Assembly (NCBI GenBank): GCA_012728995.1
Contig: JAAYEB010000083.1
Location: forward strand, 1 to 43,930
DNA: 43,930 nucleotides
Direction of reading: 5' to 3'
DNA from: Fibrobacter sp.
GTDB lineage: Bacteria > Fibrobacterota > Chitinivibrionia > Chitinivibrionales > Chitinispirillaceae
Shown here one piece after another: positions 1,151 to 31,127 of the stretch. Under the pieces are notes generated by a model. That model saw only the letters and a list, made by a program, of their open reading frames with translations. It searched no databases and was not told where the DNA came from. Made by a program: the position numbers and the translations under genes. Within the stretch, counting starts at the first letter, position 1, and each line of letters opens with the position of its first letter.

Positions 1151-1174
1151 CATAATTAAGTGGGGAATAAATTT

Positions 1175-9187: not shown

Positions 9188-9471
9188 TCCAGAAAATGAT
9201 AATTTTAGTACATTTGGTTGTGTAATCAAATGAAATATTTATCTGAAAAATAAACATATTAAAAACTATATTACTGCCCAATTAAATAGCATCTCTTTTG
9301 ATGTGCTGTTTTATCAGTTACAATCGATTTTCCCAACATAACATTTTCGTGAAACCATATTTTTATGATAATATGGTTTTTAATCCTGGACAGTTATTGT
9401 CCAAGGGGAACAGAAACTTTAACAGTACATTTTCATTGAAAAAATTGGAGGTGTATTTTTCAAGGATACCT

Positions 9472-10560: not shown

Positions 10561-11181
10561 ATGAGAATCGTCTTCAGTAAAAAAAACATACTAATAGGCG
10601 GTCTGTGTATTGTTGCCAGTGGTATAATGATTGACCTTATTGTTTTTCCCTTGATATTTCGATTTTTAAGATCAGTTCCTAAAATCGAGCATGCAGAGAT
10701 TCTTGTGGTGCAAGGCTGGGTTTTTGATACCATGGTGGACCAGACGGTGGCGGAAATAAACAGAGGTAATTACCGGGCGATCGTAGTTTCAGGAAATGGT
10801 TCTATGACAGAAAGAACTAAAAAGAGACTGCTTGCCAGAGGCGTGGATTCTTCGATGGTTTTTACTGCTCCGTACAGTAAAAAAACGAAAAGGGACCACA
10901 CATTCAATGAAGCTTTATATGTAAAAAAGCTGCTTGAAACTCAATTTCCTGACCTGTTCTCAATAAATATTGCAACAGGATATCCCCACAGCAAAAAGTC
11001 AGTAACCATATTCAGAAGAGTACTGGGGAAAAAGTACACGGTCGGAATTGTTGCCTGCAAGCCAAATCATTACGATTCTGACCATATATGGAAATCCCCC
11101 CATGGAATGTATAATACCTTCAGATTTTTTATTGGATATCTCTATGCCCTGGTTTGGCCGCTCGAGTGGATAAAGGGGTAA
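10561..11181 (+). CDS. DUF218 (YdcF/ElyC/SanA-like) membrane-anchored protein
   Basis: The protein has one N-terminal membrane helix (ILIGGLCIVASGIMIDLIVF) and a DUF218 domain. The family hallmarks are AEILVVQGWVFD (first strand), AIVVSGNG, a charged helix with HTFNEALYV, and INIATGYPHSKKSVTIFRRV. Characterised relatives (ElyC, SanA) affect cell-envelope integrity and polysaccharide carrier metabolism, but no reaction is established. AAGGAG ten bases upstream supports the ATG. It follows the FemAB-like gene by 54 bases, and similar proteins often lie near exosortase genes. A broken paralogue in opposite orientation lies at 27525-28150, on the other side of the synthetase genes. Domain call secure; function unknown. 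Confidence 0.8.
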   Translation: MRIVFSKKNILIGGLCIVASGIMIDLIVFPLIFRFLRSVPKIEHAEILVVQGWVFDTMVDQTVAEINRGNYRAIVVSGNGSMTERTKKRLLARGVDSSMVFTAPYSKKTKRDHTFNEALYVKKLLETQFPDLFSINIATGYPHSKKSVTIFRRVLGKKYTVGIVACKPNHYDSDHIWKSPHGMYNTFRFFIGYLYALVWPLEWIKG

Positions 11182-12281: not shown

Positions 12282-15200
12282 ATGAGTATCTGTAAAGCAT
12301 CGCTACAACAGGAACAACACTGGGTCCTTTCGCAGATAAATCCGACCAGTTCTGCAGCTCATCTCTGTACCGTGTTCAGGCTGACAGGGGAATTAAACAT
12401 TAACAATCTGCAGGACTCTATTCTATATCTGATAGATAAGAATGTAATATTGCGCACAGTGTTGCGATCAACAGAGAACGGGCTGGAACAGGTTGCATTG
12501 GAGCAATCAAATCCAGTATTTAAAATGGATGATTTTGTTTGTCGTGCCGCGACTGAGACTCAAGGAGATAATCTGGTACAGCAGATTGTCAGCGAGCCGT
12601 TTGATACTGAAACAGGGCCTCTTTTCAGAGCCCGATTGATATGTCTACAGGAAAACAAATATACACTTGTATTTGTCTGGCACCACAGCATTTGTGATCT
12701 CAAAACAAAAGAGCTTTTTTGCGAAGAACTGGGATATGTATACAATGCAATGATTGATGGTAAACAGATTGATAAGTATGGCCAAACATCAGTGTATGGG
12801 GAATATGCTACCAGTCAGGCTGACTGGATGCTTAGTGAGGATTATTATTCTCATCAGGAATTCTGGAAAAAACATCTGGAAAATTCCACTGAAGCACTGG
12901 ATTTGCCAACTGATTTTCAGGTTCCCGCAAATCGTTCTTTTAAAGGGACAGAATATCCCTTCGGTATTTCATCTGAACTTTGGTCGCTTGTGCAGCAATA
13001 TGCGACAAAAAAGGAGAAAACTGTTTTTCAGGTATTGCTGGGGGTGTATATTTGTCTCCTGCATCGATATTGTCGCCAGAATGATATAGTAGTCGGGGTT
13101 CCCTATACCAACAGAATCCGGAAGGAATGGAAAAGATGCTGGGGTTGTTTTGTTAATGTGCTGCCATTACGGTTTAACTTAGATGAAGAGCAGTCTTTTT
13201 CCACGATTGTAGATCTGATTGCAGAGATAATGAACTCCGTTCGGGAGCATCAGGAAGTACCGTATCTGGACATCGTGAAGAATCTTCAGAAAAATACTTC
13301 ATCATCAGTACCATCTCTTTTTCGTGTAGGGTTTACCTTCGATCGGCCGGTTCAGTTGACCCTGAAAGATGTTGAAGTAACGTTTTTCCAACAACATTTT
13401 GGCGGATCGCAATTGGATCTGATGATGTATTTCAGTGAGATAGCTGGCTCTCTTGTGGGGAGGATCGAATATAACAGTGATCTGTTTGAAGCTGAAACGA
13501 TTCAAAGGATGTCGGAGCATTTTATACAGTTAGTGACAAAAATGGTTACTACACCCGAGGAAAAGATTCGAGATATTTCCTTTCTGACAGAAAAAGAGAT
13601 CAATCTTTTTAATCTGGTGAATAAAACCAAAGTTGAATATCCAGGTAATGTCTGTATACATCAGCTTTTTGAAGCACAGGTTGCAAGACGTCCTGAAAAA
13701 ACGGCTGTCATTTTTAAACAGGGAAAATTGACCTACAAAGAACTGAATGACAGGGCCAACCAGATTGCGGCCAGATTGCTGGAAACAGGAGCAAAAGCAG
13801 ACGACTATATCGGCCTTTTTATCGAACGTACTCCGGAAATGATTATCAGTATATTGGGAATTCTTAAAGCCGGCTGCACGTATGTCCCACTGGAACCAGA
13901 CCATCCAGTCGACAGAATCATTACAATCGCTGAGGACGCTTCAATTTCGATACTGGTAACACATTCGTTGCTAAAAAATAAAATTCCTGAATTGCATATC
14001 CCGGTGCTGTTTGCTGATCAATGTTCTGGAGTTTTTTCATCGAATATAATTGAAAAGCCGAATTCGGACCCGGAGCGCATTATCTATGCAATCTTTACCT
14101 CTGGATCTACAGGAAAACCCAAAGGAGTAACAATCACCCATCAGTCTGTTGTTAATGTACTGACTGCGATGATACAAAAGCAGGAAATCCGGGATTGCGA
14201 TACATTGCTTGCCGTCGTTCCTTTTACATTCGATATGTCGGTTCCCGATCTTTTTTTGCCATTACTCATAGGAGGGGCCACTGTATTTGCTGATAAATCT
14301 GATACTTTGGATGGTGTCAGACTCGCTGAACTGATAAAAGAACACAAGGTTTCAGCAATGGAGGCAACACCGACAACGATGCGGCTGCTTCTGGCTTGCG
14401 GATGGGAAGGGGACCCGTCATTGAAAGTACTGTGTGGCGGGGAGCCGGTAACCCGTGATCTGCTGGATGATTTGGTCACAAAAGTTGGTACTTTCTGGAA
14501 TATGTATGGTCCAACAGAAACAACAATCTATTCATGCTGTCATCGGATTACATCGCCATCGCAGGCAAACAGAATCGGAAAACCAGTCAACAATACCGAT
14601 GTCCGAGTAGTAGATAAGTACATGAATCAGGTTCCGGTTGGAATACCTGGTGAGTTACTGATTGGTGGAGCTGGAGTTTCAAAAGGGTATCTTAAAAGAC
14701 CCGACTTGAATCAGGAACGCTTTTTAGATCTTAATTTTTCAAATTCTGTTGCTTCAATGAAATATTATCGAACCGGTGACATTGTCAGATGGCATTCTGA
14801 TGGGACGCTTGAGTATTTGCACCGTATCGATAATCAGGTTAAGATAAGAGGCTTCAGAATAGAACTTGGTGAGATTGAAAATGTGATCGCATCCTGTTCT
14901 AGTGTTAAACAATGTATTGCTGTAGTGAGAGATGACATAAGTATAGAAAAACATATCGTGGCATACCTAATACTCGATAATGGAATGGGTGAACGAATTA
15001 CAATTGAAACGATTAAAAAACATACGGCTGAACTGCTGCCAGCATATATGCTTCCATCATTTTACGTGGTATGTGAAACGTTTCCGCTGACGGTCAGTGG
15101 TAAAATCGATAAAAATAATCTTCCAAAACCACTTCCTGTTATAGATAACGATGATGAGCAGATACCATTCTGGGAATCTGAAACAGAACAGAGCATTGCT

Positions 15201-18200
15201 GCTATCTGGCAAAATCTTCTAAACTGTAAAAATGTTCTGCCTGATGTCAGGTTCTTCGATGCAGGTGGAACTTCGCTTCTTGCAGCACGACTCGCAATAG
15301 AACTCCAGAACGTTTCGAATCAAAAGGTGCCAGTAGCAAAAATATTCCAGTTTCCGACGATTCGTGAACAGGCTCGACTCCTTTCAGATTCCACCAAACC
15401 AGATATGCATAGCACCAGTAATGGAAGCGACGCTATAAAAAAGGAAGACTTCACAGGAAGATCAGAGGATGTGGCGGTAATTGGTATGTCCTGCCGATTC
15501 CCCGGAGCACGCACAATCGCTGAATTCTGGAATACTCTGGTTGAGGGTAAGGAACAGATCTCCTTTTTTGAACCGGCACAAATTCTACCAGATATCGACC
15601 TGCATGCGAGAAATAAGGAAAACTATGTTTGTGCAAAAGGCATAGTATCCGAATCAGATTATTTTGATAATCACTTTTTTGGCCTTCCTGCTCAAATTGC
15701 TGAGGTGACTGATCCACAATTACGTCTTTTTCTCGAGCAAGCATATAGCGCACTTGAAGATGCTGGTTATCAGTTTGATAATAATGACAAGAGTATTGGC
15801 GTATATGCCGGAGTAGGCAGAAGTCTGTATTTGCGGCATAATTTATTGACAAGGCCTGATGTTTTAGAAAACAGTGGGGAATTGCAGATAGAGTTGGGTA
15901 ATGAGAAAGATTATGTTGCAACTCGCTTCTCACATTTTATGAATTTTAAAGGTCCCAGCTGCTGTGTCAGTACTGCATGTTCAACGTCTCTTGTAGCCAT
16001 CATTATGGCATACCAGGCAATTCTTCGCGGTGATTGTACTATGGCGATCGCCGGTGGCAGTAACATAACGTTTCCGATCCATCGCGGTCATCTTTATCAG
16101 GAAGGGGCGATTTTTTCAAAAGATGGTCACTGCCGACCATTTGATCGCCTCGCAAGCGGGACGACATTCAGTGACGGAGTCGGAATTGTTGTATTGAAGA
16201 AACTTTCAAAAGCAATCGAAGATCGAAATACAATCTATGCTGTACTGAAAGGTGGAGCGATCAATAATGATGGTGCACGTAAAGTCAGCTATTCTGCTCC
16301 GGGTGTAGACGGTCAGGTGGCTGTAATCACCGAAGCAATGAAGTCTGCTGGAGTTACTGCGGACCAAATCAATTACGTTGAAACACACGGAACTGCCACT
16401 CCACTGGGTGATCCAATCGAAATAGATGCTCTTACGCAGGCGTTCCGCCAAACAACGGATAGGAAGCAGTTTTGTGCTATCGGTTCAGTGAAAAGCAACA
16501 TTGGTCATACTGCAATCGCAGCAGGTGTTGCCGGATTTATAAAAACGGTACTCATGCTTTATAATAAAACTATTGTCCCCTCCATCAATTATACAGAACC
16601 TAATCCGGCAATTGATTTTCCTGAGAGTCCTTTTCATGTCGCAACAAAATGCAAGCCATGGCAGTCTGAAAGTACTCTACGGTATGCCGGAGTCAGTTCT
16701 TTTGGTTTTGGTGGCACCAATGCACATGTGATACTATCGGAACCACCAGAAACAGTTGGAAGTGGGCCATCCCGGCGCCAGCAACTGTTGCTCTTATCAG
16801 CAAAAAGCAAGGCTGCAGTATCCAGTATTGCAGAAGAGTACCGGTCATTTTTAACGAGTAATCAGAACATGAATCTTGCAGACTGCGCGTTTACTCTGCA
16901 GAAAGGACGCCAGCGGTTTGAGCATCGGTGGAGCACAACCTGTGCAACCATCGATGAAGCGGTACTTTCACTAAGAGATATTTCTTCATCGGATATCGTT
17001 TCCGGGATTCCGGGCACGAAGCGCACCCTTGTTTTTATGTATCCGGGACAGGGAAATCAGTATGTCAACATGGGCAGGATCCTCTATTCTGAGGAGCGGG
17101 TATACCGGGAGGCATTTGACCACTGTGTCGAGGCTCTCAGGAAAGGGGGAGCTGAAGATATCAGAAAGGCTATTTTTGTCGATGATACCGGTGCAGCGAA
17201 TGAACGGTTAAAAGATACCTTATTGGCTCAACCCGCAATTTTTGCAACGGAATATGCACTGAGTCGCCTCTGGTTAAGCTGGGGAATCACACCTGATCTT
17301 CTTGTTGGACACAGTATTGGAGAATTCTGTGCGGCCTGTATCTCCGGGATTATGTCGCTTGAGGATGCCTCCTTTCTTGTGGCTGTACGGGCAAAACTTA
17401 TGAGATCATGTGAGCCGGGAGCTATGTTATCGGTCCGTCTTTCAGAGGAGGATCTGCAACCAATTTTGAACAAAGATGTAAGTATCGGGGCTGTAAACAG
17501 TCCAAAACTGAGTGTAGTATCAGGTCCCCATGCTGCAATAAAGTTAGTAGAAAAAGAGTGTGAAACCAGGAATATTCCTTGTAGAAGATTACAAACCTCT
17601 CACGCATTTCACTCTTCTATGATAGATCCGGCTGTTGGACAGTTCGATCGCGAAGTAAGAAAAATCAAACTCAATCTCCCCAAAATACCGATTATTTCAA
17701 CCGTGACTGGCAAGTTGCTGACTGATGAACTTGCAACTAATCCAGGTTACTGGTCACATCATATGCGGGTAACTGTCCGATTCTCGGACGCAATTGCTTA
17801 TATTGCTAAAACCAGACCACTTGCTGATTTTCTGGAGGCAGGTCCTCGTGCAACGAGTTGTACACTGGTCAGGCAGCAGTTGTACGATTTCAAAAAATAC
17901 CGGACTATTCCATCAATGGGAGATGGAGCCGATCCCGGTATGGAAGACAGGGAATTACTGACAGCACTTGGAAAATTATGGGAAGGGGGTATTGAACCGG
18001 ATTGGAATGCTTTTTATCAGAATGAGCAGCGAAGATTGATTTCATTACCGACGTATCCATTTGAGCGTAAGAGGCATTGGGTTGAACCAGGAATAATGGT
18101 TCAGCAATCTGCAGGAAATCCAGAGATAAGCAGAATGACAGGTGATTCAGATGCTGAATTTACCGATAGTTCGATCAGTCTTGCCCTGACTGAAGCTGAG

Positions 18201-18440
18201 TCGGTTTTGTCAAAACTACGAAAAATAGTTGCTGAAGCGCTTGGGACCCCTGTTGAGGCCGTAGATGAGGATGCAACATTCCTTCAGCTGGGAATGGATT
18301 CGTTATTTTTAACGCAAATGACACAACGGATCAAATCATTGTTCAATGTAACAGTCTCAATGCGGCAACTCATGCGGCAACATTCAAGTATTTCGAAATT
18401 AAGTGACTTTATAGAGAACAATACACAAAATGCCAGATGA
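12282..18440 (+). CDS. Hybrid NRPS/PKS: C-A-PCP-KS-AT-ACP
   Basis: A 2052-residue multidomain synthetase. Condensation domain (~5-440): HHSICD at 134-139 keeps the catalytic HHxxxD, but the next residue is Leu rather than Gly. Adenylation domain (~460-950): TSGSTGKPKG near 606, RGFRIELGEIE near 857; my hand-read ten-residue code is D-M-P-E-L-G-M-I-Y-K, which I cannot assign. Peptidyl carrier: GGTSL with Ser998. Ketosynthase (~1060-1490): Cys1233 in TACSTSL, His1369 in ETHGTA, His1409 in NIGHTA, all intact. Acyltransferase (~1580-1890): Ser1678 in GHSIGE and a HAFH motif near 1774, typical for malonyl-CoA. Acyl carrier: Ser2007 in GMDSL. There is no KR, DH or ER, so the beta-keto group should remain. 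An N-terminal C domain could accept an acyl starter or an upstream intermediate. AGGA lies four bases before the ATG. Confidence 0.95.
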   Translation: MSICKASLQQEQHWVLSQINPTSSAAHLCTVFRLTGELNINNLQDSILYLIDKNVILRTVLRSTENGLEQVALEQSNPVFKMDDFVCRAATETQGDNLVQQIVSEPFDTETGPLFRARLICLQENKYTLVFVWHHSICDLKTKELFCEELGYVYNAMIDGKQIDKYGQTSVYGEYATSQADWMLSEDYYSHQEFWKKHLENSTEALDLPTDFQVPANRSFKGTEYPFGISSELWSLVQQYATKKEKTVFQVLLGVYICLLHRYCRQNDIVVGVPYTNRIRKEWKRCWGCFVNVLPLRFNLDEEQSFSTIVDLIAEIMNSVREHQEVPYLDIVKNLQKNTSSSVPSLFRVGFTFDRPVQLTLKDVEVTFFQQHFGGSQLDLMMYFSEIAGSLVGRIEYNSDLFEAETIQRMSEHFIQLVTKMVTTPEEKIRDISFLTEKEINLFNLVNKTKVEYPGNVCIHQLFEAQVARRPEKTAVIFKQGKLTYKELNDRANQIAARLLETGAKADDYIGLFIERTPEMIISILGILKAGCTYVPLEPDHPVDRIITIAEDASISILVTHSLLKNKIPELHIPVLFADQCSGVFSSNIIEKPNSDPERIIYAIFTSGSTGKPKGVTITHQSVVNVLTAMIQKQEIRDCDTLLAVVPFTFDMSVPDLFLPLLIGGATVFADKSDTLDGVRLAELIKEHKVSAMEATPTTMRLLLACGWEGDPSLKVLCGGEPVTRDLLDDLVTKVGTFWNMYGPTETTIYSCCHRITSPSQANRIGKPVNNTDVRVVDKYMNQVPVGIPGELLIGGAGVSKGYLKRPDLNQERFLDLNFSNSVASMKYYRTGDIVRWHSDGTLEYLHRIDNQVKIRGFRIELGEIENVIASCSSVKQCIAVVRDDISIEKHIVAYLILDNGMGERITIETIKKHTAELLPAYMLPSFYVVCETFPLTVSGKIDKNNLPKPLPVIDNDDEQIPFWESETEQSIAAIWQNLLNCKNVLPDVRFFDAGGTSLLAARLAIELQNVSNQKVPVAKIFQFPTIREQARLLSDSTKPDMHSTSNGSDAIKKEDFTGRSEDVAVIGMSCRFPGARTIAEFWNTLVEGKEQISFFEPAQILPDIDLHARNKENYVCAKGIVSESDYFDNHFFGLPAQIAEVTDPQLRLFLEQAYSALEDAGYQFDNNDKSIGVYAGVGRSLYLRHNLLTRPDVLENSGELQIELGNEKDYVATRFSHFMNFKGPSCCVSTACSTSLVAIIMAYQAILRGDCTMAIAGGSNITFPIHRGHLYQEGAIFSKDGHCRPFDRLASGTTFSDGVGIVVLKKLSKAIEDRNTIYAVLKGGAINNDGARKVSYSAPGVDGQVAVITEAMKSAGVTADQINYVETHGTATPLGDPIEIDALTQAFRQTTDRKQFCAIGSVKSNIGHTAIAAGVAGFIKTVLMLYNKTIVPSINYTEPNPAIDFPESPFHVATKCKPWQSESTLRYAGVSSFGFGGTNAHVILSEPPETVGSGPSRRQQLLLLSAKSKAAVSSIAEEYRSFLTSNQNMNLADCAFTLQKGRQRFEHRWSTTCATIDEAVLSLRDISSSDIVSGIPGTKRTLVFMYPGQGNQYVNMGRILYSEERVYREAFDHCVEALRKGGAEDIRKAIFVDDTGAANERLKDTLLAQPAIFATEYALSRLWLSWGITPDLLVGHSIGEFCAACISGIMSLEDASFLVAVRAKLMRSCEPGAMLSVRLSEEDLQPILNKDVSIGAVNSPKLSVVSGPHAAIKLVEKECETRNIPCRRLQTSHAFHSSMIDPAVGQFDREVRKIKLNLPKIPIISTVTGKLLTDELATNPGYWSHHMRVTVRFSDAIAYIAKTRPLADFLEAGPRATSCTLVRQQLYDFKKYRTIPSMGDGADPGMEDRELLTALGKLWEGGIEPDWNAFYQNEQRRLISLPTYPFERKRHWVEPGIMVQQSAGNPEISRMTGDSDAEFTDSSISLALTEAESVLSKLRKIVAEALGTPVEAVDEDATFLQLGMDSLFLTQMTQRIKSLFNVTVSMRQLMRQHSSISKLSDFIENNTQNAR

Positions 18441-18486
18441 GAGGTAATGAGATGCAAACCTTCGAGAAAGGATTGAGTGATTATTC

Positions 18487-21400
18487 ATGAGTGCTATGAA
18501 TAGCAGTCGGAAAATGGATGAAAAAAAATTTCCCACTACCGAATCACAGAAAGAGATCTGGATATCAAGCAAGATGGGGCACGAAGCATCGTGTGCATAT
18601 AATGAATCGGTACTGCTTGGTATCTCCGGTGTCAGTGATGTGGACCTTCTGCACAGAGCGATTACAATCGTTGTCGATCGGCATGATGCTCTGAATTCGG
18701 TCTTCTCAAATGATGGCAGATGGATGCTGCTGCGTTCAGGTATGGAGAAAAAAATTGATACTATCAATTTGTCTGCCGCAACTGCCCGGGAGCAGGGTGA
18801 GGCTGTGCTACAGCAATCCAAAGAGGCTGTGGCAGAGGCTTTCGATCTCGAAAATGGACCGCTATGGAATGCAACGGTGCTGATCCTTTCATCACGGGAA
18901 CTTAAACTCTTTTTTACCGCGCATCATATTGTCTGCGACGGATGGTCTTTGAGTGTTCTTGTAGACAAAATACTCTCAACTTATTCAGCGCTTCTGGAAA
19001 ACAAACTTCCCGCTTCGTATGACGATCCATCATTCGGGGAGTATCTTCTTGAGCAACACCAGTTTGCACAAACGGCACAGGCTGCGGAGCACCTGCAGTA
19101 CTGGAAAGAGAAGTTCAGCCATCAGGTACCTGTTCTTCAGTTGCCTACCGATAATCCCCGGCCTGCATTCAGAACCTATAAAGCAGATTGTGTTTCTGCA
19201 GATGTGCCTGCAACGGTATCTGATCAGATAAAGCAGCTGTCGATCTCTCTGCAGTGCAACCCTAACACGATCTTTCTGGGGGTATATGCGGTATTACTTT
19301 ATAAATTGTCGGGCAATCCAGATTCGGTTGTAGGAATGCCCGTATCCGGGCAGAGTTTCTCAGGGAAAAACGATCTGGTCGGGCACTGTATTAATATGCT
19401 CCCAGTTCTCTGCTCCATAAATCCTGAAGAACCATTTTCAGCTTTCATCGATAAATTGCAGGACACGCTGTATGATGATTTCGATCACTATACGGTTACC
19501 TTTGGCGAGCTGGTAAAAGAGCTGCAGATCAGACGGGAACCGGGACGTATACCGCTGATGTCTACAGGTTTGACGTACATGAGAATGAAACCGCCCGATG
19601 AACTGGTATTTCCTGATTTTACGGCTACTTACAAGATAATTGAGCGATCTTTCGAGACGTTTGAAATGCAGGGCGCGGTTGTTGACTACGGTGATAGACG
19701 TACGTTTATGTGGCAATACAATACCAGTCTGTTCAGGCGGGAAACAATTGAGCTGTGGCTTGACGGCTATATGGCAATTCTTGTGAATGCTGTCACTCTT
19801 CCTGACACTCCTGTCAAAGAACTGTCCATGCTCTCTGCGGCGGCCAGGGAGGAGCTGCTTTATAAATGGAATCGTACCGCCAGACCGCTTACTCAGGGCA
19901 AAACGGTTGTTCATGCTATAATGGAGTCTGCAGAGAGGTATCCAGATGCCATTGCCGTTGAGTATGGCGAAACTTCGTGTACCTACCGAATGCTGGATGT
20001 CAGATCATCCCTTCTTGCCGAATTGTTGCGAAAACAGGGTGTTGCTGCGGGAGGGACAGTCGCGGTGTGTATGGATAAAACCACTGACGCCATTATCGCC
20101 ATGCTTGCCATTTTGAAAGTACGGGCAGCATACATTCCGGTCGACAGTATCTTTCCGGACGAGAGAATCTCCTATATCATGAGAGACAGCGGGACCACCG
20201 TATTGATAACACAAAAAGAGTATGCACCCAAATATCGGCAGCTTCAGTGTGAAATGGTTTTTGTTGATGATATTAATGAAAGTAGCGGGGACATTGCTGA
20301 TCTGGAGGGTGGACTGCCGTTGCCAACCGATCCGGCATATATAATTTACACGTCCGGATCGACAGGCAAACCAAAAGGGGTGAAAATCGGTCATGAAGCA
20401 CTCTATAATTTTCTCTGTGCCATGAAAGAGAAACCGGGATTTGGAAGAACCGATTCGGTACTCTCGGTAACAACAATTTCGTTCGATATTGCCGTATTGG
20501 AGATTTTCCTGCCACTGATCGCAGGCGGGAAAGTAATCATTGCTGAAAAAGATACCGTGATGGATGGATCACGTCTGACACAGAAAATTGCAAATTGCCA
20601 TCCTTCTGTCATGCAGGCGACACCATCAACCTGGACACTTTTACTCAACTCCGGTTGGAAGGATGGACAGGGAATGACACTGCTCTGTGGTGGAGAAGTA
20701 TTGACACGGTCTCTTGCCGACAGGCTTCTGGCAACCGGTGCAACCGTATGGAACATGTATGGTCCTACCGAAACAACGGTCTGGTCATCGCTCTGGCGTG
20801 TCGAACATGGCACTCAAACACCGCCGGTCGGGTATCCGATTGCCAATACCCAGCTCTATGTACTTGATAATGCAATGGAGCCGGTTCCGGCAGGTATTTC
20901 CGGGGAACTCTATATCGGTGGCAGGGGACTGGCGTTAGAATACCATAATCGCCCCGATCTGACCAAAGATAAATTCCTGCCGGATCCATTCCTTGAGGCA
21001 AACGATCCGTCCGGGTGTGGAAAACTCTTCAAAACCGGTGATATTGCAAAGCGGCTTGGAGATGGTACCATTGTCGTGATGGGGAGAAGTGATTTTCAGG
21101 TGAAAATACGGGGTTTCAGGGTTGAGTTGGGTGAGATAGAATCTGTTCTCGAGGAGCTTTCTGCTGTTAGCAAAGCAGTGGTACTCGCCACGAAAGATGA
21201 GTCAGGAAATGATCGACTGATTGGCTATATAGAAAGTACTGCGGAGGTGTTTGCCGAAGAGGTACGGGAATATCTTTCCGGAAAACTGCCTCATTACATG
21301 GTTCCGGATCAGCTGGTGCAGGTGGAGTCATTTCCGTTGACTCCAAATAAAAAGATAGACAGGCTGGCGCTTGTGCAACAGCGTCAGGCCGTATCCCTGC

Positions 21401-21741
21401 CGACAAAGGTACAGGCTATACTGCCCGCAAATGAACGGGAGACGAAGCTTCTGGAAATATGGCAGCAGGTGCTGAAATCGACTGCATTCGGAACGAAAGA
21501 CAACTTTTTTGCAATTGGTGGAAATTCGATTTTGATTGCGGAAATACAGATGTTGATTAAAGAAAAACTTGGAATTGATATTCCACTGACATCACTGTTT
21601 CAGTATCCCACCATAGCATCACTTGCAGAAAGCCTGGGAGGAAATGGTGAAAACCGGACTGATGGTGACGCCCGGGAAAGGATGCTTTTAAAGCAGCAGG
21701 CATTGAACCGGCGCCGTAATGCGTTGAGGCGCGGAAGATAA
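18487..21741 (+). CDS. NRPS module: C-A-PCP, predicted Gly
   Basis: A 1084-residue single NRPS module, 46 bases after the first synthetase gene. Condensation domain (~15-445): HHIVCDG at 146-152, fully canonical; its N-terminus (TESQKEIWISSKMG, then EASCAYNES) resembles C domains that follow a PKS module. Adenylation domain (~470-945): TSGSTGKPKG near 622. The hand-read code D-I-L-Q-L-G-M-V-W-K is very close to published glycine codes (DILQLGLIWK type), so Gly is the best guess. Carrier protein: GGNSI with Ser1014. The C-terminus is a basic helix (LLKQQALNRRRNALRRGR) that may act as a docking element towards the next protein. No epimerase, methyltransferase or cyclisation domain is present. 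Confidence 0.94.
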   Translation: MSAMNSSRKMDEKKFPTTESQKEIWISSKMGHEASCAYNESVLLGISGVSDVDLLHRAITIVVDRHDALNSVFSNDGRWMLLRSGMEKKIDTINLSAATAREQGEAVLQQSKEAVAEAFDLENGPLWNATVLILSSRELKLFFTAHHIVCDGWSLSVLVDKILSTYSALLENKLPASYDDPSFGEYLLEQHQFAQTAQAAEHLQYWKEKFSHQVPVLQLPTDNPRPAFRTYKADCVSADVPATVSDQIKQLSISLQCNPNTIFLGVYAVLLYKLSGNPDSVVGMPVSGQSFSGKNDLVGHCINMLPVLCSINPEEPFSAFIDKLQDTLYDDFDHYTVTFGELVKELQIRREPGRIPLMSTGLTYMRMKPPDELVFPDFTATYKIIERSFETFEMQGAVVDYGDRRTFMWQYNTSLFRRETIELWLDGYMAILVNAVTLPDTPVKELSMLSAAAREELLYKWNRTARPLTQGKTVVHAIMESAERYPDAIAVEYGETSCTYRMLDVRSSLLAELLRKQGVAAGGTVAVCMDKTTDAIIAMLAILKVRAAYIPVDSIFPDERISYIMRDSGTTVLITQKEYAPKYRQLQCEMVFVDDINESSGDIADLEGGLPLPTDPAYIIYTSGSTGKPKGVKIGHEALYNFLCAMKEKPGFGRTDSVLSVTTISFDIAVLEIFLPLIAGGKVIIAEKDTVMDGSRLTQKIANCHPSVMQATPSTWTLLLNSGWKDGQGMTLLCGGEVLTRSLADRLLATGATVWNMYGPTETTVWSSLWRVEHGTQTPPVGYPIANTQLYVLDNAMEPVPAGISGELYIGGRGLALEYHNRPDLTKDKFLPDPFLEANDPSGCGKLFKTGDIAKRLGDGTIVVMGRSDFQVKIRGFRVELGEIESVLEELSAVSKAVVLATKDESGNDRLIGYIESTAEVFAEEVREYLSGKLPHYMVPDQLVQVESFPLTPNKKIDRLALVQQRQAVSLPTKVQAILPANERETKLLEIWQQVLKSTAFGTKDNFFAIGGNSILIAEIQMLIKEKLGIDIPLTSLFQYPTIASLAESLGGNGENRTDGDARERMLLKQQALNRRRNALRRGR

Positions 21742-21807
21742 CACAATGCAACATGCATTGGACAATTTACGTAATTTATGATATTTGATATATAGATGAG
21801 GCTTCAT

Positions 21808-24800
21808 ATGGGTAGCAGGAATATTATTGAACAGCTGTCAAAATGGAACGATACCCGCAGGGATTATGCTTCAGATGTCTGTTTACATGCACTCTTTGAA
21901 AAGCAGGCTTCCTTAACACCGGATCTGTGTGCGGTTGTATATGAAGAGCAGTCGCTGACCTACCGGGAACTAGACAAAAGAGCAGATTGTGTTGCAGCGG
22001 AACTGATAGATAAAGGTGTTGTGCCGGACAGTATTGTCGGTATCTGTATCGAACGCTCCATAGAGATGGTAGTCGGGCTACTGGCTATTTTGAAAGCCGG
22101 GGGTGCATATCTGCCGCTCGATCCGGATCTTCCTCAGGAAAGAATCAATTTTTTAATCACCGATGCACAAGTATCGTGTGTTCTTACAAATACTGCCTGC
22201 AGGCAATCGGTTGAATTCTCCTCTGCCCGGGTTATACTTCTTGATAACAATGAACTCTATGCTGCCGGGAATGAATCGGCGGTTCAGGTTGCCGTTACAC
22301 CGCACAATCTGGCATATGTTATCTATACCTCAGGCTCAACAGGAAATCCGAAAGGTGTATGTATCGAACACCGGGCCATTGTTAACAGGATACTCTGGAT
22401 GCAGGATGCGTTTGCTCTGACGCAGGCTGATCGGGTTCTGCAGAAAACGCCCTATTCGTTTGATGTGTCGGTATGGGAGTTTTTCTGGCCGCTGTCTATG
22501 GGGGGGCTGCTGGTAATGGCAAAACCGGGAGGACAGAAGGATACCGAATATCTGCTCGATACCATCTTAAAGTACCAGATCTCGGTTATACACTTTGTCC
22601 CCTCGATGCTGCGTCTCTTTCTGACTGCAGATAGTCTCGATAGAACAAAATCACTGCGATTGGTGGTATGTAGTGGTGAAGCGTTATCTGTTGATCTTGA
22701 GCAGCAGTTTTTCCGGAAAATCGATGCCGCTCTATACAATCTGTACGGTCCAACCGAGGCCGCAGTCGATGTTTCCTGGTGGCAGTGCCGCAAGGATTCA
22801 ATGCTTGCAACCGTACCGATAGGAATGCCGATAGCAAATATACAGCTCTACATTTTAAATGATCAACAGCAACCGGTAGAGATCGGTGAAAAGGGAGAAC
22901 TGTATATTGGCGGGGTTGGTCTCGCACGGGGGTATCTTAATCGACCAGATTTGACAGAAAAAACATTTGTCCATCTATCGACAGGCGACGACAGCGAAAT
23001 ACGGCTCTACAAAACAGGGGATATCTGTCGGTATCTGGAGGATGGTGCTATAGAATACATCGGGCGGGCAGATTTCCAGGTAAAAATACGCGGCTTCAGG
23101 GTAGAGCTCGGAGAGATAGAAAACGCGATCAGGCAGGCTGCTCCTGTGAATGATTGTGTCGTTGTTGCTCGTGAGGACATTCCCGGCGACAAGCGTCTCG
23201 TTGCCTACGTTATTGCAAAAAGCGATATCTTTTCTCAGAATGATCTGCTCGCAGAGCTGCATAAAAAACTGCCGGAGTATATGATCCCCTCGGCAGTTGT
23301 TCAAATGGATTCATTTCCGCTCTTGTCAAACGGGAAGCTGGACAGAGGAGCGCTTCCAAAGCCGGGAAGGAAACGGCCGGAACAAAAGCAGAATTATGTT
23401 GGCGCTGGAAACAGCCTTGAAAAACAGTTCGAGAATGCCTGGTGCAGTGTGCTGGGGTATGATACGGTGGGGATTGATGATAATTTTTTTGACCTCGGCG
23501 GTAATTCGTTTCTGGCAATCCAGGTGCTGCAGTTTCTCAAAGAGGTGCACGGCATTGTACTGCCTGTCATTAAAATGTTCGAACTGCCGACAATTCGCAC
23601 ACTGGCACAGTACTATGGAGAGAAAGACAAGGTTGAATCACATTCTATGGAAACAGTCGCTGTGAAAAACAATTATGATGATGCTGGTGAATTTGAAGAT
23701 GATGCTTTGCAAAATGCTGTCGCTGTAATAGGGATGTCCGGGAGATTCCCCGGTGCATCGGATCTCGATACCTTTTGGAAAAATCTTTGTGACGGTGTTG
23801 AATCGGTTAAACATTTTTCTCGAGAAGAGCTGCTTGAAGCCGGTGTTCCGCAGGAGCTGCTTGATAATCCTCATTATATTAAAAGTGCCCCGTTAATTGA
23901 TGATGTGGAGTGTTTTGATGCCGCTTTTTTCGGATATAATCCTGATGATGCGAGCTCGATGGATCCGCAGCATCGTCTCTTTCTCGAGGCGTGCTGGAGT
24001 GCACTGGAGGATGCCGGATGTAATCCGGAAGAGTATGGTGGGAAAATAGGAGTATTTGCCGGGTGCAGCATGAATTGCTATTTTCTGAAAAACGTACTAC
24101 CTGTCAAAGGGTTGGATCAGCCGCTTGAATCCTTTATGGCAATGATCGGCAATGAGAAAGATTATCTCGCAACGAAAGTGGCCTATTGCCTTAACCTTAC
24201 CGGCCCGGCTATCAATGTGCAGACGGGCTGTTCGACGGCTCTTGTTGGGGCACACCTTGCATGTCAAAGTCTTCTGAATTATGAATGTGATATGGCCCTG
24301 GCCGGGGGCGCAACAGTAAGAACTCCGCAAAAGGAGGGATACCTCTATACGGAAGGTATGATTGCATCAAAAGATGGACATTGCAGAACATTTGATGAGC
24401 ATGCCTCGGGAACCGTGTTTGGCGAGGGGGTAGGGGTTGTTCTGTTGAAGCGTTACTATGATGCGGTAAAAGATCGTGACCCCATAGATGCAGTCATTTT
24501 AGGTACTGCAGTCAATAATGATGGTTCTCTGAAAGTGGGGTATACTGCTCCGAGTGTTAACGGACAACGTGACGTTATTGAATCAGCGCAGGCAATGGCG
24601 AATGTTACACCACAGGATATCTCCTTTATCGAAGCGCATGGAACCGGAACTTTGCTGGGTGATCCTATTGAAGTGAAAGCACTTGCTGAGGTGTTCAGGC
24701 AGGGAACGGAAAAACATTGTGCACTTGGATCACTAAAGCCGAACATCGGTCATCTGGATGCGGCCGCAGGGATTGCCGGATTGATCAAAACGATTCTTGT

Positions 24801-27483
24801 TTTAAAGCATCGAAAAGTGCCACCGGTTATCAATATGACATCAGTAAACCCGAAACTGGAACTTGAAAAGACACCCTTTTTTATCAATACAGAATGTACA
24901 GATTTGCAGCCATCACCGCTGAGTACCGATAAAACCCGGTTACTGGCAGGAGTCAGCTCCTTTGGGGTAGGGGGAACGAATGTACACGCCGTTTTGCAGG
25001 CGGAAAACGGGATTGTATCACCGGTTACAGCTGCGGGTATGCATATCCTGCCCTGTTCAGCCAGAACTCCCGGATCACTACAGGGTAACCTGGAAAAACT
25101 GGGCCGCTACCTTACAAATAATAGTGTTAGTGTTCGGGACATTGCCTGTACCCTGCGAAACGGAAGAAAACAGTTTCCATACAGGGAAGTCGTTGTCGCT
25201 GATTCGGCAAAGAGTGCCGGTGAACAGTTTGAAAAAATCAGCAGGCAGCATAATACCAGAAAGGCACTGTCGCAGCCATCGGTGACCTTCATGTTTACCG
25301 GCCAGGGGTCGCAGTATGTGAATATGGGTAAAAAGCTGTATGACAATGAATCGCTTTTCAGAAAACACGTGGATGAGTGTGCGCGGCTGATCGATCGTGT
25401 TACCGGTACCGATATACTGGCGCAAATGTTTATTGATGGCGATCCTTCAGTTGCGATGAGCGAGCATCTGAAAAGAACCGAGGTGACACAGCCTGCGCTG
25501 TTTGCAATTGAATACTCTCTGGCACAGGTCCTGATTGCCTGGGGAATAAAACCGGATCGTCTGATTGGACACAGTGTCGGTGAGTATGTTGCTGCTACAC
25601 TGGCAGGAGTTTTTACACTTGAACAGGCGACAGAAATTATATGCACGCGTGGACAGTTGATGCAAAGCATGCCGGAAGGATCGATGCTTGCAGTATCACT
25701 GCCTGCAGATGAGGCGGTGGCCTTCTGTAATGATACCATCGCTTTGGCAGTGGTTAATTCTCCGGCGCACAGTGTGCTTGCCGGGCCAACCGATGCAGTA
25801 ACTGCATTGAATGAAGAATTGAAGGCGAGGAAAATTCAGACAACTATCCTGAAAACATCGCATGCATTTCATTCGCCGATGATGGGACCTGCTGCAGAAA
25901 CGTTTGTTGATCGTCTCGGTTCCATGCACTTCAACAAACCATCCCTGCCGATATTGTCAAATGTCACAGGTAACTATATAACGGATGATGATGCGGTGTC
26001 TGCCCAGTACTGGGGCAATCACATTCGAAATACGGTACAGTTCTCTGAAGGTGCCCGAAAAATCCTGCAGAATAAGGAACAGATACTGATTGAAGTCGGT
26101 CCGGGAAACACTCTGTGCTCGCTGGTTAAAATGCAGGATTTTGACACAAACTCCGTAGCTGTCATTCCCGCTCTGCCGGGTATACAACAGGTTGCAACCA
26201 CCTATGAACATTTTCTGCGTGCTGTAGGGCAGGTCTGGATGTCTGGCGGTACGATTGACTGGGATACGATCGCAGATGTCAGCCAGGGGAGAAGAGTTCA
26301 TCTGCCGACGTATTCTTTTGAAAAGGTTCGACACTGGATTGAGCCGGAAAAAAACAATTCTGAACCTGATGTAAAAAAACGCAAAAGAACGAAGAGTAAA
26401 ACGGACGATAACGCGAAAAAAAATGTTCAGGCCATAAAAGAACCTGAAAATGTTACTGTCGCGATTATCCAGATGTGGAAGGATCTTCTGGGTGTGGATA
26501 CTGTTACTGTGGAGAGTAACTATTTCGAGCTTGGTGGAACTTCCCTTCAGGCGCTACGACTGTTCGAACAGGTGGAAAAAAGATTCGGTGTTTACCTACC
26601 GGTTGGTACGCTTATTAATGCGCCGACTGTTGAACAGCTGGTTAAAATTATCGAAAAAAAGGATGATCATGCGAAAAACTGGTCACTGGTTGTGCCGATT
26701 CGTTCAACAGGGCATAAAAAACCGCTTTTTCTGATTCATGGTGGTGCGGGGAATGTCCTTTTATATCGGGAACTAGCAATGTGCCTTCCTGATGACCAGC
26801 CGGTGTATGGTATTCAGGCCCAGGGGCTTAATGGTAAAGATGCCATTCTTACCTCCATAGAAGAGATGGCTGAGAGATATGTAAAAGAGATTCAGCTGGT
26901 TGATCCGGAGGGTCCGTATTATCTTGGAGGGTATTGTCTGGGAGGTACGATAATCTATGAAATGGCACGACATCTGACAACAGCAGGTAAAAGGGTGGGA
27001 TTAGTGGCAATGTTTGATACCTACCGTGAGTGGTTTGAGCTGACACGTGCCGAGCGGTTCAGGTATTTATTTGACAATATAGGATTTCATGTCAAAAATA
27101 TCGCACAGGCTTCACCGAAAGGGAAGGTTGATTTTATTAAGGAACGGGGTTTTGAAGCGGTCAGGCGTGTTAAAAGAAAAATGGCGGTTATGGCAAGTCA
27201 GGCGCTGCATTCCGCGGGGATACGAAAGGAACCGCCACTTATTATCATGGAAACCGTGAATGATGCTGCAGCGATGAACTATGTGGCAAAACCCTACAGT
27301 GGAAAAATTACCGTGTTCAAACCGAAATCGGTTTCCGATATTGTCGATCCCTATCTCGGCTGGAAGTCTGTTGAAACCGGTGGTGTGGATCTGGTGAACC
27401 TGTCAGCATATCGTAACGGAATACTGATCAGTCCATTTGTGAAAGAGATGGCAGAGGAGCTGAAGAAGAGGCTTGAGCAGTGA
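21808..27483 (+). CDS. Hybrid NRPS/PKS: A-PCP-KS-AT-carrier-TE, predicted Ser
   Basis: A terminal synthetase protein. I prefer the ATG at 21808 (GAGG six bases upstream); an in-frame ATG at 21796 adds four residues, and numbering here uses 21796. The N-terminus starts with a C-domain tail and linker (IIEQLSKWNDTRRDYA) and goes straight into the adenylation domain (~25-515), whose hand-read code D-V-W-H-V-S-L-V-D-K is nearly the serine code of EntF. Carrier Ser571 (GGNSF). Ketosynthase (~640-1060): Cys812 in TGCSTAL, His948, His986. Acyltransferase: Ser1260 in GHSVGE, HAFH at 1356, so malonyl-CoA. A Lys-rich linker (~1535-1560) precedes the second carrier, Ser1583 (GGTSL). Thioesterase (~1640-1895): GGYCLGG with Cys1714 instead of Ser, Asp1741 in MFDTY, and no His at the usual C-terminal site. 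No KR, DH or ER. Confidence 0.94.
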   Translation: MGSRNIIEQLSKWNDTRRDYASDVCLHALFEKQASLTPDLCAVVYEEQSLTYRELDKRADCVAAELIDKGVVPDSIVGICIERSIEMVVGLLAILKAGGAYLPLDPDLPQERINFLITDAQVSCVLTNTACRQSVEFSSARVILLDNNELYAAGNESAVQVAVTPHNLAYVIYTSGSTGNPKGVCIEHRAIVNRILWMQDAFALTQADRVLQKTPYSFDVSVWEFFWPLSMGGLLVMAKPGGQKDTEYLLDTILKYQISVIHFVPSMLRLFLTADSLDRTKSLRLVVCSGEALSVDLEQQFFRKIDAALYNLYGPTEAAVDVSWWQCRKDSMLATVPIGMPIANIQLYILNDQQQPVEIGEKGELYIGGVGLARGYLNRPDLTEKTFVHLSTGDDSEIRLYKTGDICRYLEDGAIEYIGRADFQVKIRGFRVELGEIENAIRQAAPVNDCVVVAREDIPGDKRLVAYVIAKSDIFSQNDLLAELHKKLPEYMIPSAVVQMDSFPLLSNGKLDRGALPKPGRKRPEQKQNYVGAGNSLEKQFENAWCSVLGYDTVGIDDNFFDLGGNSFLAIQVLQFLKEVHGIVLPVIKMFELPTIRTLAQYYGEKDKVESHSMETVAVKNNYDDAGEFEDDALQNAVAVIGMSGRFPGASDLDTFWKNLCDGVESVKHFSREELLEAGVPQELLDNPHYIKSAPLIDDVECFDAAFFGYNPDDASSMDPQHRLFLEACWSALEDAGCNPEEYGGKIGVFAGCSMNCYFLKNVLPVKGLDQPLESFMAMIGNEKDYLATKVAYCLNLTGPAINVQTGCSTALVGAHLACQSLLNYECDMALAGGATVRTPQKEGYLYTEGMIASKDGHCRTFDEHASGTVFGEGVGVVLLKRYYDAVKDRDPIDAVILGTAVNNDGSLKVGYTAPSVNGQRDVIESAQAMANVTPQDISFIEAHGTGTLLGDPIEVKALAEVFRQGTEKHCALGSLKPNIGHLDAAAGIAGLIKTILVLKHRKVPPVINMTSVNPKLELEKTPFFINTECTDLQPSPLSTDKTRLLAGVSSFGVGGTNVHAVLQAENGIVSPVTAAGMHILPCSARTPGSLQGNLEKLGRYLTNNSVSVRDIACTLRNGRKQFPYREVVVADSAKSAGEQFEKISRQHNTRKALSQPSVTFMFTGQGSQYVNMGKKLYDNESLFRKHVDECARLIDRVTGTDILAQMFIDGDPSVAMSEHLKRTEVTQPALFAIEYSLAQVLIAWGIKPDRLIGHSVGEYVAATLAGVFTLEQATEIICTRGQLMQSMPEGSMLAVSLPADEAVAFCNDTIALAVVNSPAHSVLAGPTDAVTALNEELKARKIQTTILKTSHAFHSPMMGPAAETFVDRLGSMHFNKPSLPILSNVTGNYITDDDAVSAQYWGNHIRNTVQFSEGARKILQNKEQILIEVGPGNTLCSLVKMQDFDTNSVAVIPALPGIQQVATTYEHFLRAVGQVWMSGGTIDWDTIADVSQGRRVHLPTYSFEKVRHWIEPEKNNSEPDVKKRKRTKSKTDDNAKKNVQAIKEPENVTVAIIQMWKDLLGVDTVTVESNYFELGGTSLQALRLFEQVEKRFGVYLPVGTLINAPTVEQLVKIIEKKDDHAKNWSLVVPIRSTGHKKPLFLIHGGAGNVLLYRELAMCLPDDQPVYGIQAQGLNGKDAILTSIEEMAERYVKEIQLVDPEGPYYLGGYCLGGTIIYEMARHLTTAGKRVGLVAMFDTYREWFELTRAERFRYLFDNIGFHVKNIAQASPKGKVDFIKERGFEAVRRVKRKMAVMASQALHSAGIRKEPPLIIMETVNDAAAMNYVAKPYSGKITVFKPKSVSDIVDPYLGWKSVETGGVDLVNLSAYRNGILISPFVKEMAEELKKRLEQ

Positions 27484-27524: not shown

Positions 27525-28150
27525 CTCAACTCTTAAACGGCCACAGTAACCCATAAACATATCCCGCTCTCCATATCGAATCACATTCTTTATTCTTCCA
27601 TTTTTCTCCCATCAACCATTGGGACAAAATACCACGCTTTTGCCGAAATGATTCCTACGAATAGTTTTTCCAAAAACTCTTCTGAATATTGCTCATGATT
27701 TTCTTCCATGCGAACCACCTGTGAACACATTGAAAGATCTTACAGACAGGTCGTTCTCTTCTAAATCATTCCTTTGCGGCCATAGCCATATTTAAGTTTT
27801 ATGTTTACGTTTTTCTACAACTTCGGCAATTTTTACATCCTCCATTCTGAATCCAGCCTTCTTAATGCTTTTCCATATTGAATCAAATGAATCGAGTGTC
27901 CCAGTTATAAGGGAGTACAAATAATCTCCATCATTAAATTCTTCAGCTGCTTCATTAAACATATCTTGCAAAAGCCATCCTTCGATTACAAGCACATCAG
28001 CATCAACAGGATATGTTATGCTCAAAAACCCGTATATCTTATTCAAGGCATTGTCTTATTTGATGTATATTATCGGAATTGTGATTATAATCGCGATAAA
28101 TAAAACTTTTACTTTTTTTGCACTGGCTTTGCATTTTACTCCTTATAACT
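27525..28150 (-). pseudogene. Broken DUF218 (YdcF-like) paralogue
   Basis: Read on the minus strand, pieces of a DUF218 protein appear in order but in different frames. First a membrane helix (VKVLFIAIIITIPIIYI) ending in a stop, then VDADVLVIEGWLLQDMFNEA and YSLITG. Next, beyond a stop near 27792, comes FNVFTGGSHGRKS, a stop, then AIFRRVFGK; finally CDSIWRAGYVYGLLWPF. These match, piece by piece, AEILVVQGWVFD, INIATGYPHSKKSVTIFRRVLGKK and YDSDHIWKS with YLYALVWPL in the intact gene at 10561-11181. The longest open piece (27792-28046) could be mistaken for a small gene. Several stops and frameshifts and lost sequence in the middle make it non-functional. Confidence 0.8.
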
Positions 28151-28455: not shown

Positions 28456-29979
28456 ATGATAAAAAGAAAAAAGGTTTCATTAAAAGCAAATGCATTCAGT
28501 AACTGGTTTTTGCTGGCAATAAATGTTGGGATTGGGGTTTTCCTGACACCATTTATAATTAACAATCTAGGAAACGGCAGATATGGCATTTGGACTCTTG
28601 TAAACTCAGTAATAGGTTATTATGGAATAATCAATTTAGGAGTAGGATCTGCAGTAACACGCTATATAGCCCTGTATACAGGAAAAAAAGATTCCGGAGC
28701 TATAAATGAAACTGCAAGTACTACATTTGCCATGTTTACTGTAACAGCAGCGATCGTTACTGGTTTCAGTTTAGTATTTGCAGATACTTTTGCAGATTTT
28801 TTTAATGTTGATGAGTCTCAGAAAAATGAATTTGTTAATACGATTATCATCCTTGGTTTGACAACAGGCATAACATTTATCTCAAATGTTTTTACAGCTA
28901 TACTTACATCCCGTGAACACTACATTTCGGTAAATTTTTTTGGTAGTATTTTAACTTTAGTACGAGCAATGTTAATTGTTATTTTTGTTCATAATGGATT
29001 TGGTATTACAGGAGTGGCATTTGCCACATTTGCAGTAAGTGTATTTCAATTAATAATAAAAATAGTACTTTACAATTATTTATCGCCTGATATTAAAATA
29101 AACTTTAAAAGCATCAAACTAAACACCTTAAAAATTCTTGTTTTGTACGGGGGTATAACTACAATAATTCAGATTGCAGATATTTTAAGAATCAATATTG
29201 ACAGTCTGGTCATTGGACGGTTTTTAACATTAGAGGCGGTTGGCATTTATGGAGTTGCAGCACTATTATTAAGATACATGGGAAAAGTAATAATTTCGGG
29301 TGTAAGTGTCTTGAATCCCCGTTTTTCAAATCTGGCAGGAAGTGGAGATTCAAATGAACAGAGAAGATTGCTGTTCAAAGCATTACAACTAGCATCCTTT
29401 ATCTCTTTTGGAATGACTCTGTTTGCTATAGCATTTGGTCCGCGTTTTATAGTTTTCTGGGTTGGTAAAGAATTTGCCGAAGCTTCTTATGTTTTAATTA
29501 TTGTCTCTGCTGCTTATGCATTTGATCTTGCTCAAAGCCCCAGTATCGCACTATTGTACGCGAAAAATAAACACAAATATTACGCATTCTATATAATCCT
29601 GGAAGCTGTTGCAAATCTTCTCATAAGCATAATACTGGTTCATAAATTTGGCATGACAGGAGTTGCAATTGGTACTGCAATTCCCATGATTATTTCAAAA
29701 TGTATTATTATGCCCCTTTATGTTTGCAAAATTTTCAATCTTTCTTTGAAAAATTATCTCAAACCATTCAGTATACCTTTAGCTTTATCGTTAATTGTTT
29801 TAGCAACAATTTACAGCACAGGCCTGTCCAATGTTATCTCAAATAATGATCAATTTTTATTCTGCGTTCTGGCATGTACGGTGGGAGCTGTTTATATGAT
29901 TATTGCCCTGATGTTTATGTATAGAGATTCTTTAAACACACTTTTAAAATCAAATTTTAATCTGTGGACAATCACATAA
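28456..29979 (+). CDS. Polysaccharide flippase (MOP superfamily)
   Basis: A full-length (507 residues) integral membrane flippase with roughly 12-14 hydrophobic segments. The N-terminus (NAFSNWFLLAINVGIGVFLT followed by PFIINNLGNGRYGIWTLV) is the typical first-helix pair of Wzx-like exporters, and FNVDESQKNEF lies in the usual periplasmic loop. It differs in type from the truncated flippase at the window start, so the region has two exporters and perhaps two polysaccharide or glycolipid systems. The gene overlaps the convergent glycosyltransferase by eight bases. No strong ribosome-binding site precedes the ATG. Substrate unknown; export of a product of the neighbouring synthetases is conceivable but unsupported. 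Confidence 0.85.
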   Translation: MIKRKKVSLKANAFSNWFLLAINVGIGVFLTPFIINNLGNGRYGIWTLVNSVIGYYGIINLGVGSAVTRYIALYTGKKDSGAINETASTTFAMFTVTAAIVTGFSLVFADTFADFFNVDESQKNEFVNTIIILGLTTGITFISNVFTAILTSREHYISVNFFGSILTLVRAMLIVIFVHNGFGITGVAFATFAVSVFQLIIKIVLYNYLSPDIKINFKSIKLNTLKILVLYGGITTIIQIADILRINIDSLVIGRFLTLEAVGIYGVAALLLRYMGKVIISGVSVLNPRFSNLAGSGDSNEQRRLLFKALQLASFISFGMTLFAIAFGPRFIVFWVGKEFAEASYVLIIVSAAYAFDLAQSPSIALLYAKNKHKYYAFYIILEAVANLLISIILVHKFGMTGVAIGTAIPMIISKCIIMPLYVCKIFNLSLKNYLKPFSIPLALSLIVLATIYSTGLSNVISNNDQFLFCVLACTVGAVYMIIALMFMYRDSLNTLLKSNFNLWTIT

Positions 29980-30955: not shown

Positions 30956-31127
30956 AAAAAGTATATTCTTCAAAGCTTTTCTACCTAAAACAACTCTTTC
31001 AGAACAAAAAATAACTATTCAGTTAATTAATTGCATTGATTATTTTCATTAATCATTCAAATCTAATGGAAATAACTTATAGTAGTTGAATAATAATCGG
31101 GAAATACGGAAATTATAAAGGTTTCTT

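Follow-up and report, generated by a model that had tools for sequence, protein, structure and literature searches.

A three-gene hybrid NRPS-PKS line inside an exopolysaccharide locus of a Fibrobacterota genome and the possible use of its product in the cell envelope

Does an assembly line of nonribosomal peptide synthetase (NRPS) and polyketide synthase (PKS) modules that lies among polysaccharide genes make a free metabolite, or does its product modify a component of the cell envelope? The question is raised by a stretch of 43,930 nucleotides (contig JAAYEB010000083.1, C483 in our numbering; hereafter the window) of a Fibrobacter sp. genome of the family Chitinispirillaceae, the assembly of which has 4.97 Mb in 486 contigs and is 97.65% complete with 3.26% contamination. 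A lichenase sequence of Fibrobacter succinogenes is matched at 100% identity in another genome of this phylum, which places the phylum as Fibrobacterota; the order and family of the window differ from those of Fibrobacter, with Chitinispirillia or Chitinivibrionia as the probable placement. The window contains three co-directional ORFs of 2052, 1084 and 1895 amino acids (aa) without internal stops, separated by 46 bases (genes 1 and 2) and 54 bases (genes 2 and 3). Pfam searches (E-values 1e-24 to 1e-91 for the C, A, KS, AT and TE domains) recovered the domain order given in the preliminary description (Table 1), and the active-site motifs are intact in all domains except the TE, namely, HHSICD and HHIVCDG in the C domains, TACST/TGCST in the KS domains, GHSIGE/GHSVGE and HAFHS in both AT domains, and the serine in all five carrier domains. 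We take HAFHS to be the malonyl signature, so that AT1 and AT3 are both of the malonyl type as had been proposed, and the absence of reductive domains was likewise upheld, no KR, DH, ER or MT domain being found in the three genes by Pfam. The phosphopantetheinyl transferase (PPTase) sought elsewhere in the genome is encoded on another contig (G000:C107:6263-6571); it is an Sfp-like protein in a 235-aa frame with the W..KE motif (WVLKES). The combination of C, A, carrier, KS and AT domains with intact motifs in shared proteins, together with this PPTase, confirms that an intact three-gene hybrid NRPS-PKS line is present. A frameshifted or decayed cluster is ruled out, since all frames are open. 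Promoter and terminator scans gave signals at or below the shuffle level.

Table 1. Positions of the assembly-line genes, their domains and the neighbouring genes in the window
Feature	Position	Strand	Basis
Wzx-type flippase (5' end cut by window) and GT2 glycosyltransferase	2..2023	+	
OafA-type O-acyltransferase	4266..5357	+	
Radical SAM/SPASM protein; homolog within G008 NRPS operon (26% identity, 3e-24)	6368..7453	+	
Secreted 532-aa protein, family not recognised; homologs in EPS-type loci of the order	7589..9187	+	
FemAB/GNAT aminoacyltransferase-like protein, TIGR03019 below cut-off	9298..10506	+	
DUF218/YdcF-like protein; homolog beside G008 line (28% identity, 2e-22)	10561..11181	+	
Gene 1, hybrid NRPS-PKS, C-A-PCP-KS-AT-ACP, 2052 aa	12282..18440	+	Pfam, motifs, aligned code
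C1	12300-13598	+	Pfam
A1 (code DMPELGMIYK)	13668-15104	+	Pfam
PCP (gene 1)	15177-15389	+	Pfam
KS1	15465-16739	+	Pfam
AT1, malonyl type	17031-17933	+	Pfam
ACP (gene 1)	18213-18413	+	Pfam
Gene 2, NRPS, C-A-PCP, 1084 aa, basic C-terminal tail	18487..21741	+	Pfam, code, C-domain tree
C2	18520-19860	+	Pfam
A2, Gly (code DILQLGMVWK)	19924-21354	+	Pfam
PCP (gene 2)	21445-21630	+	Pfam
Gene 3, hybrid, A-PCP-KS-AT-ACP-TE, C-less, 1895 aa	21796..27483	+	Pfam, code, motifs
A3, Ser (code DVWHVSLVDK)	21895-23337	+	Pfam
PCP (gene 3)	23416-23631	+	Pfam
KS3	23713-24975	+	Pfam
AT3, malonyl type	25285-26190	+	Pfam
ACP (gene 3)	26461-26649	+	Pfam
Non-canonical TE	26722..27480	+	Pfam, alignment, motifs, AlphaFold, Foldseek
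TE Cys nucleophile (Cys1714), GYCLGG	26929-26946	+	alignment
TE lid His, FHVKN	27085-27099	+	alignment
TE usual His replaced after last strand, AYRNGIL	27406-27426	+	alignment
Truncated DUF218 remnant, downstream, antisense	27792..28046	-	
Wzx/MATE-type flippase	28456..29979	+	
GT2-type glycosyltransferase	29972-30973	-	
GT2-type glycosyltransferase	31128-32090	+	
GT2-type glycosyltransferase	32288-33391	+	
Choice-of-anchor A / PEP-CTERM-like surface protein	33626-34663	+	
Choice-of-anchor A / PEP-CTERM-like surface protein	35867-36868	+	
Choice-of-anchor A / PEP-CTERM-like surface protein	38201-38944	+	

We read the A-domain codes by alignment with 15 A domains of the order. Those of A2 and A3 fit the established codes for Gly and Ser, respectively, in agreement with the earlier hand reading, and A1 is still without a substrate assignment: it is closest overall to Gly-type A domains (40-43% identity), but its code differs from theirs. 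The same Gly and Ser codes occur in most lines of the order, the former in C-A-PCP units and the latter in C-less A-PCP units. As predicted from its domains and codes, the line can load Ser, Gly, one further amino acid and two malonyl units, with no reduction. An A domain with another unassigned code, DMYQIGGVFK, was seen within a KS-AT-P-C-A-P-TE protein of G004:C279 (L040).

Exopolysaccharide (EPS)-type genes had been described on both sides of the line, and this is borne out, the flanks holding two Wzx-type flippases, four GT2-type transferases, an O-acyltransferase and a FemAB protein, with a nitroreductase-like protein also encoded upstream. The FemAB protein scores 99.6 bits against a TIGR03019 cut-off of 260.35 and is 37% identical to the FemAB protein of an NRPS-free EPS locus (G027:C4), and the homolog of the 532-aa secreted protein is present as a single copy in G008, where it lies inside the NRPS locus. 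The Pfam cut-off for PEP-CTERM is passed by the candidate at 38201-38944 alone (22.4 vs 20.7 bits), the other two being weak. The window contains no exosortase; the single exosortase of the genome is encoded on contig C119, and the absence carries less weight because the window is bounded and the assembly fragmented. The window has no exporter, regulator or resistance gene dedicated to a metabolite cluster, and no Hexapep-PCP fusion. We know of no NRPS-PKS genes that form part of the described XrtA/PEP-CTERM system. The window shares a FemAB-like protein, flippases, GT2s and PEP-CTERM-like proteins with the XrtA/PEP-CTERM EPS locus (Haft et al. 2006, PMC1569441), but differs from it in that it has no exosortase and its FemAB protein falls below the TIGR03019 cut-off; related loci of the order carry an exosortase, an XrtA-type tyrosine kinase, or hydrolase 1/2-like genes. 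A trace of mobile DNA, a DDE_5 transposase fragment (2207-2482, Pfam 7e-14), is present towards the left end of the EPS region, and a flavin reductase-like protein (11339-12073, minus strand), divergent from gene 1, has no homolog among the NRPS loci compared.

Seven other hybrid lines of the same order (G000:C476, G002:C199, G004:C279, G007:C162, G008:C10, G014:C209 and G025:C34) share with the window the Gly and/or Ser codes, the grouping of KS and C domains, and frequent EPS neighbours, but their module orders differ, and the His-less Cys TE described below is found in G008 and G014 only. The C476 line (L036, L055) is a second, truncated hybrid line in the same genome as the window, consisting of C-A(Gly)-P-KS-AT-P, C-P and KS-AT-P-C-A(Gly)-P, and is flanked by a DUF218 protein without detectable pairwise similarity to that of the window, a DegT-type sugar aminotransferase, an XrtA FemAB protein over the cut-off (293.5 bits) and a Wzc-like kinase. 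The G008:C10 line, which has in common with the window the TE type and homologs of the DUF218, radical SAM, secreted and GT2 proteins, is located about 5 kb from an exosortase and near Wzc, with RmlC/RmlD beside its C-A(Gly)-P gene. Next after the line comes a gene resembling hydrolase 2 of the exosortase A system in G025 and one resembling hydrolase 1 in G007, both below cut-off, and several XrtA-type matches likewise fall below their family cut-offs. Between the NRPS genes of G008:C10, a 335-aa protein (L041:10469-11473) fuses a hexapeptide-repeat acyltransferase region to a PP-binding domain, and is a candidate for moving a carrier-bound acyl group to a sugar. When the NRPS loci of the order were compared with the positions of exosortases or strong XrtA FemAB proteins, 3 of the 24 loci lay within 10 kb of such a marker versus 0.24 expected (P=0.0016), 2 within 5 kb (P=0.01) and 3 within 25 kb (P=0.012), P values that are indicative only, since the choice of markers followed a first look at some of the loci. 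NRPS-PKS lines thus occur repeatedly beside exosortase/EPS genes in several genera of the order. On the other hand, many of the order's NRPS loci lack an EPS marker, and since EPS genes also occur without NRPS genes, as in G027:C4, where relatives of both the FemAB and the secreted protein of the window are encoded, neighbourhood alone is no proof of joint function.

Outside the order, a scan of the genome contig collection returned only distant matches (Thalassospira, Pseudomonas and MAGs; best segments 32-47% identity), and the order A-PCP-KS-AT-ACP-TE was not found among them. In the literature searched, which includes few subscription papers, we found no paper joining exosortase, nonribosomal peptide, polyketide synthase and exopolysaccharide, and nothing relevant on NRPS/PKS in capsule, EPS or O-antigen contexts. 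A survey of Shark Bay reports NRPS/PKS in Fibrobacteres MAGs and compares their KS domains to PUFA synthases, and its passages on this describe no NRPS-EPS link (PMC7472256).

The three genes have a G+C content of 45.7%, compared to 34.4% and 35.7% in the flanks, and this excess of about 10 points suggests horizontal transfer; their GC3 is also higher than that of the paralogous cluster C476. In addition, the DUF218 remnant is nearer to the DUF218 protein of G008 (37%) than to the window's own copy, and its relative position and orientation are as in G008. The G+C contrast and the remnant fit a putative arrival of the line as a cassette from a locus resembling that of G008. A search for repeats at the cassette borders found none. 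A MAG chimera as the sole cause was rejected, as TE, DUF218, radical SAM and GT2 homologs are common to G008; contamination is still conceivable.

Returning to the fate of the product, we tentatively favour the reading that a mobile hybrid line was acquired as a cassette in an EPS locus and that its product serves as an acyl decoration of the exopolysaccharide, although we would put this at slightly under an even chance. Under this reading, gene 3 would begin its own chain with Ser followed by malonyl, and genes 1 and 2 would extend with the A1 residue, malonyl and Gly, the carriers being armed by the separately encoded Sfp-like PPTase; the TE and/or the acyltransferases of the locus (FemAB and O-acyltransferase) would then transfer the short beta-keto-aminoacyl product onto an EPS sugar, with no free acid formed. 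Of these steps, we infer the start on gene 3, the attachment of the product to a polysaccharide sugar and the arrival of the cassette. The intact domains together with the PPTase, the EPS neighbours of C476 and G008:C10, the proximity test and a TE state conserved in two genera speak for decoration, whereas the want of a Hexapep-PCP fusion in the window, the post hoc choice of markers, the many NRPS loci without an EPS marker, the XrtA-type matches below cut-off, the EPS genes that occur without NRPS genes and a TE that may be inactive speak against it. Alternatively, the line might make an ordinary free small metabolite, such as a tetramic acid or a beta-keto-amide dipeptide, the transferred cluster having landed by chance in an EPS region; we consider this somewhat less probable, though it is the main rival. 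EPS loci are recombination hot spots, the three genes form a compact unit with a distinct base composition, several NRPS loci of the order are without EPS neighbours just as EPS-type loci exist without NRPS genes, and by general chemistry a tetramic acid could form from a Ser-malonyl thioester by cyclisation, with no further enzymes. However, EPS/exosortase neighbours recur in several genera and at the paralogous cluster of the same genome, and the window is without the exporter, regulator or resistance gene of a dedicated metabolite cluster. The choice between free metabolite and envelope component, posed as a question in the preliminary description, now leans towards the envelope, though either may hold. 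The activity of the TE and the order of the chain are questions separate from that of product fate, and our confidences in them are not additive.

A terminal TE had been assigned to gene 3; it is indeed present, but it departs from the usual triad, having a Cys nucleophile and no catalytic His. The Cys lies in a GxCxG motif, the Cys form of GxSxG, and the acid Asp is kept in MFDTYR at the usual position after beta6, whereas the His after the last strand is absent. The TEs of G008:C10 and G014:C209 (another genus) are 37-38% identical to that of the window; they carry GYCLGG, have Glu in place of the acid Asp and read NPRGML/SPRGML where the His would stand, and a lid His is common to all three (FHVKN / YHLEN); as a guess, this lid His could stand in for the missing catalytic one. 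All 12 other aligned TEs, five of the order and seven from plasmids, keep the His, including the Aquisphaera TE, which has Cys together with His. Among 168 genomes of the phylum, close relatives of the TE occur only in G008 and G014 besides the window, and a tblastn search of plasmids returned only His-bearing TEs of about 30% identity. The AlphaFold model of the TE (pLDDT 77.7, with a weak lid) has NRPS/PKS TEs as its best Foldseek matches. TE nucleophiles are Ser or, less commonly, Cys, activated by Asp and His (PMC11298585). The Cys TEs of ObiF1 and SulM (PMC11298585) share with the window TE the substitution of Cys for Ser and a small predicted product, but retain the triad His and have the Asp moved to the loop after beta7, while the window TE has no His and its Asp appears to follow beta6 (Glu in G008/G014). 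Given the absent His, the TE might be degenerate and inactive, with the chains leaving by spontaneous cyclisation or through an external hydrolase, which would be compatible with either product fate. We regard this as unlikely, since the same His-less Cys state and the common lid His are kept at 37-38% identity in another genus and the predicted fold is intact, so that conservation and fold argue against simple decay. Conserved in two genera, such a Cys TE without His departs from the triad rule of release domains, and this departure is directly testable.

As for the order of the chain, the linear form of the previously predicted backbone X-malonyl-Gly-(Ser-malonyl) does not follow, because there is no condensation domain between the Gly and Ser modules, while its gene 1 to gene 2 part finds support. 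Gene 3 opens with a C-A linker and then the A domain, and Pfam found no C domain between PCP2 and A3 in the window; hence a C or KS domain joining successive modules is missing at the gene 2/gene 3 step, where stand-alone or out-of-order use would be possible. A separate A(Ser)-PCP protein (DVWHISLVDK) directly precedes a KS-AT-PCP protein in both G002:C199 and G004:C279, and an A(Ser)-PCP with the same code opens an A-P-C-A-P protein in G025:C34; A(Ser)-P, KS-AT-P-TE and C-A(Gly)-P are also close together in G002:C199. Since the Ser A-PCP unit is a C-less start module in three related genera and gene 3 has no C domain, A3 is most simply read as a start module, with Ser and then malonyl placed on gene 3 itself. 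By comparison of bit scores alone, not by a labelled tree, C1 is not nearest to lipopeptide-type starter C domains: it scores 135-157 against elongation-type domains (TycC-, Txo- and similar; about 140 for LCL-type chains) versus 54 and 45 against the RzmA and CDA starters, and C2 likewise scores far higher against elongation-type than starter domains. C1 and C2 thus look like elongation types, and genes 1 and 2 would therefore need an upstream donor. In the trees, C1 pairs with the C domain encoded in G002:C199 (support 0.995), C2 belongs to a clade made up of C domains that come after KS-AT modules, one of them from C476 (support 1.0), and KS1 groups with the first KS of the paralogous three-protein cluster C476 (support 0.996). 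The last two groupings support a transfer from gene 1 to gene 2, and gene 3 could be first, last or separate. A single colinear line from gene 1 through gene 3, yielding X-malonyl-Gly-Ser-malonyl with release by the TE and compatible with either product fate, would agree with the gene order, the TE at the end, the C2 clade and the grouping of KS1 with the opening protein of C476, a cluster of similar order, but it is improbable, as no C domain lies between PCP2 and A3, Ser A-PCP units start chains in the relatives, an elongation-type C1 leaves gene 1 without a donor, and the TE is non-canonical. The line as a whole shares its domain set, order and motifs with modular, malonyl-extending hybrid type I NRPS-PKS lines, but differs from them in having the putative Ser start module and the TE on one protein, and two C-led proteins without an obvious starter.

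Extended to the order, decoration of the exopolysaccharide would mean that, in one Fibrobacterota order, NRPS-PKS cassettes move between exosortase/EPS loci and make Ser/Gly/malonyl acyl groups, which a His-less Cys TE puts on a polysaccharide sugar without hydrolysis or cyclisation; in this general form the idea is speculative, and we hold it to be doubtful. Assembly lines are usually taken as makers of free metabolites. If these lines are part of EPS loci, one class of clusters mined from the genomes of uncultured bacteria would be misread, and NRPS-PKS chemistry would be a route to unusual substituents of surface polysaccharides; if the transfer to a glycan is true, a thioesterase-type domain would act as a glycan acyltransferase. 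Two further observations concern large proteins. The right end of the window (39908-43687) encodes a secreted protein of 1259 aa whose C-terminal domain appears to be T9SS-like; its homologs are encoded close to NRPS lines of G002:C134, G004:C310 and G008:C10 (27%, down to 1e-98). In the same family, G002:C182 contains an 8715-aa NRPS frame with at least eight C domains, adjoining a KS-AT gene.
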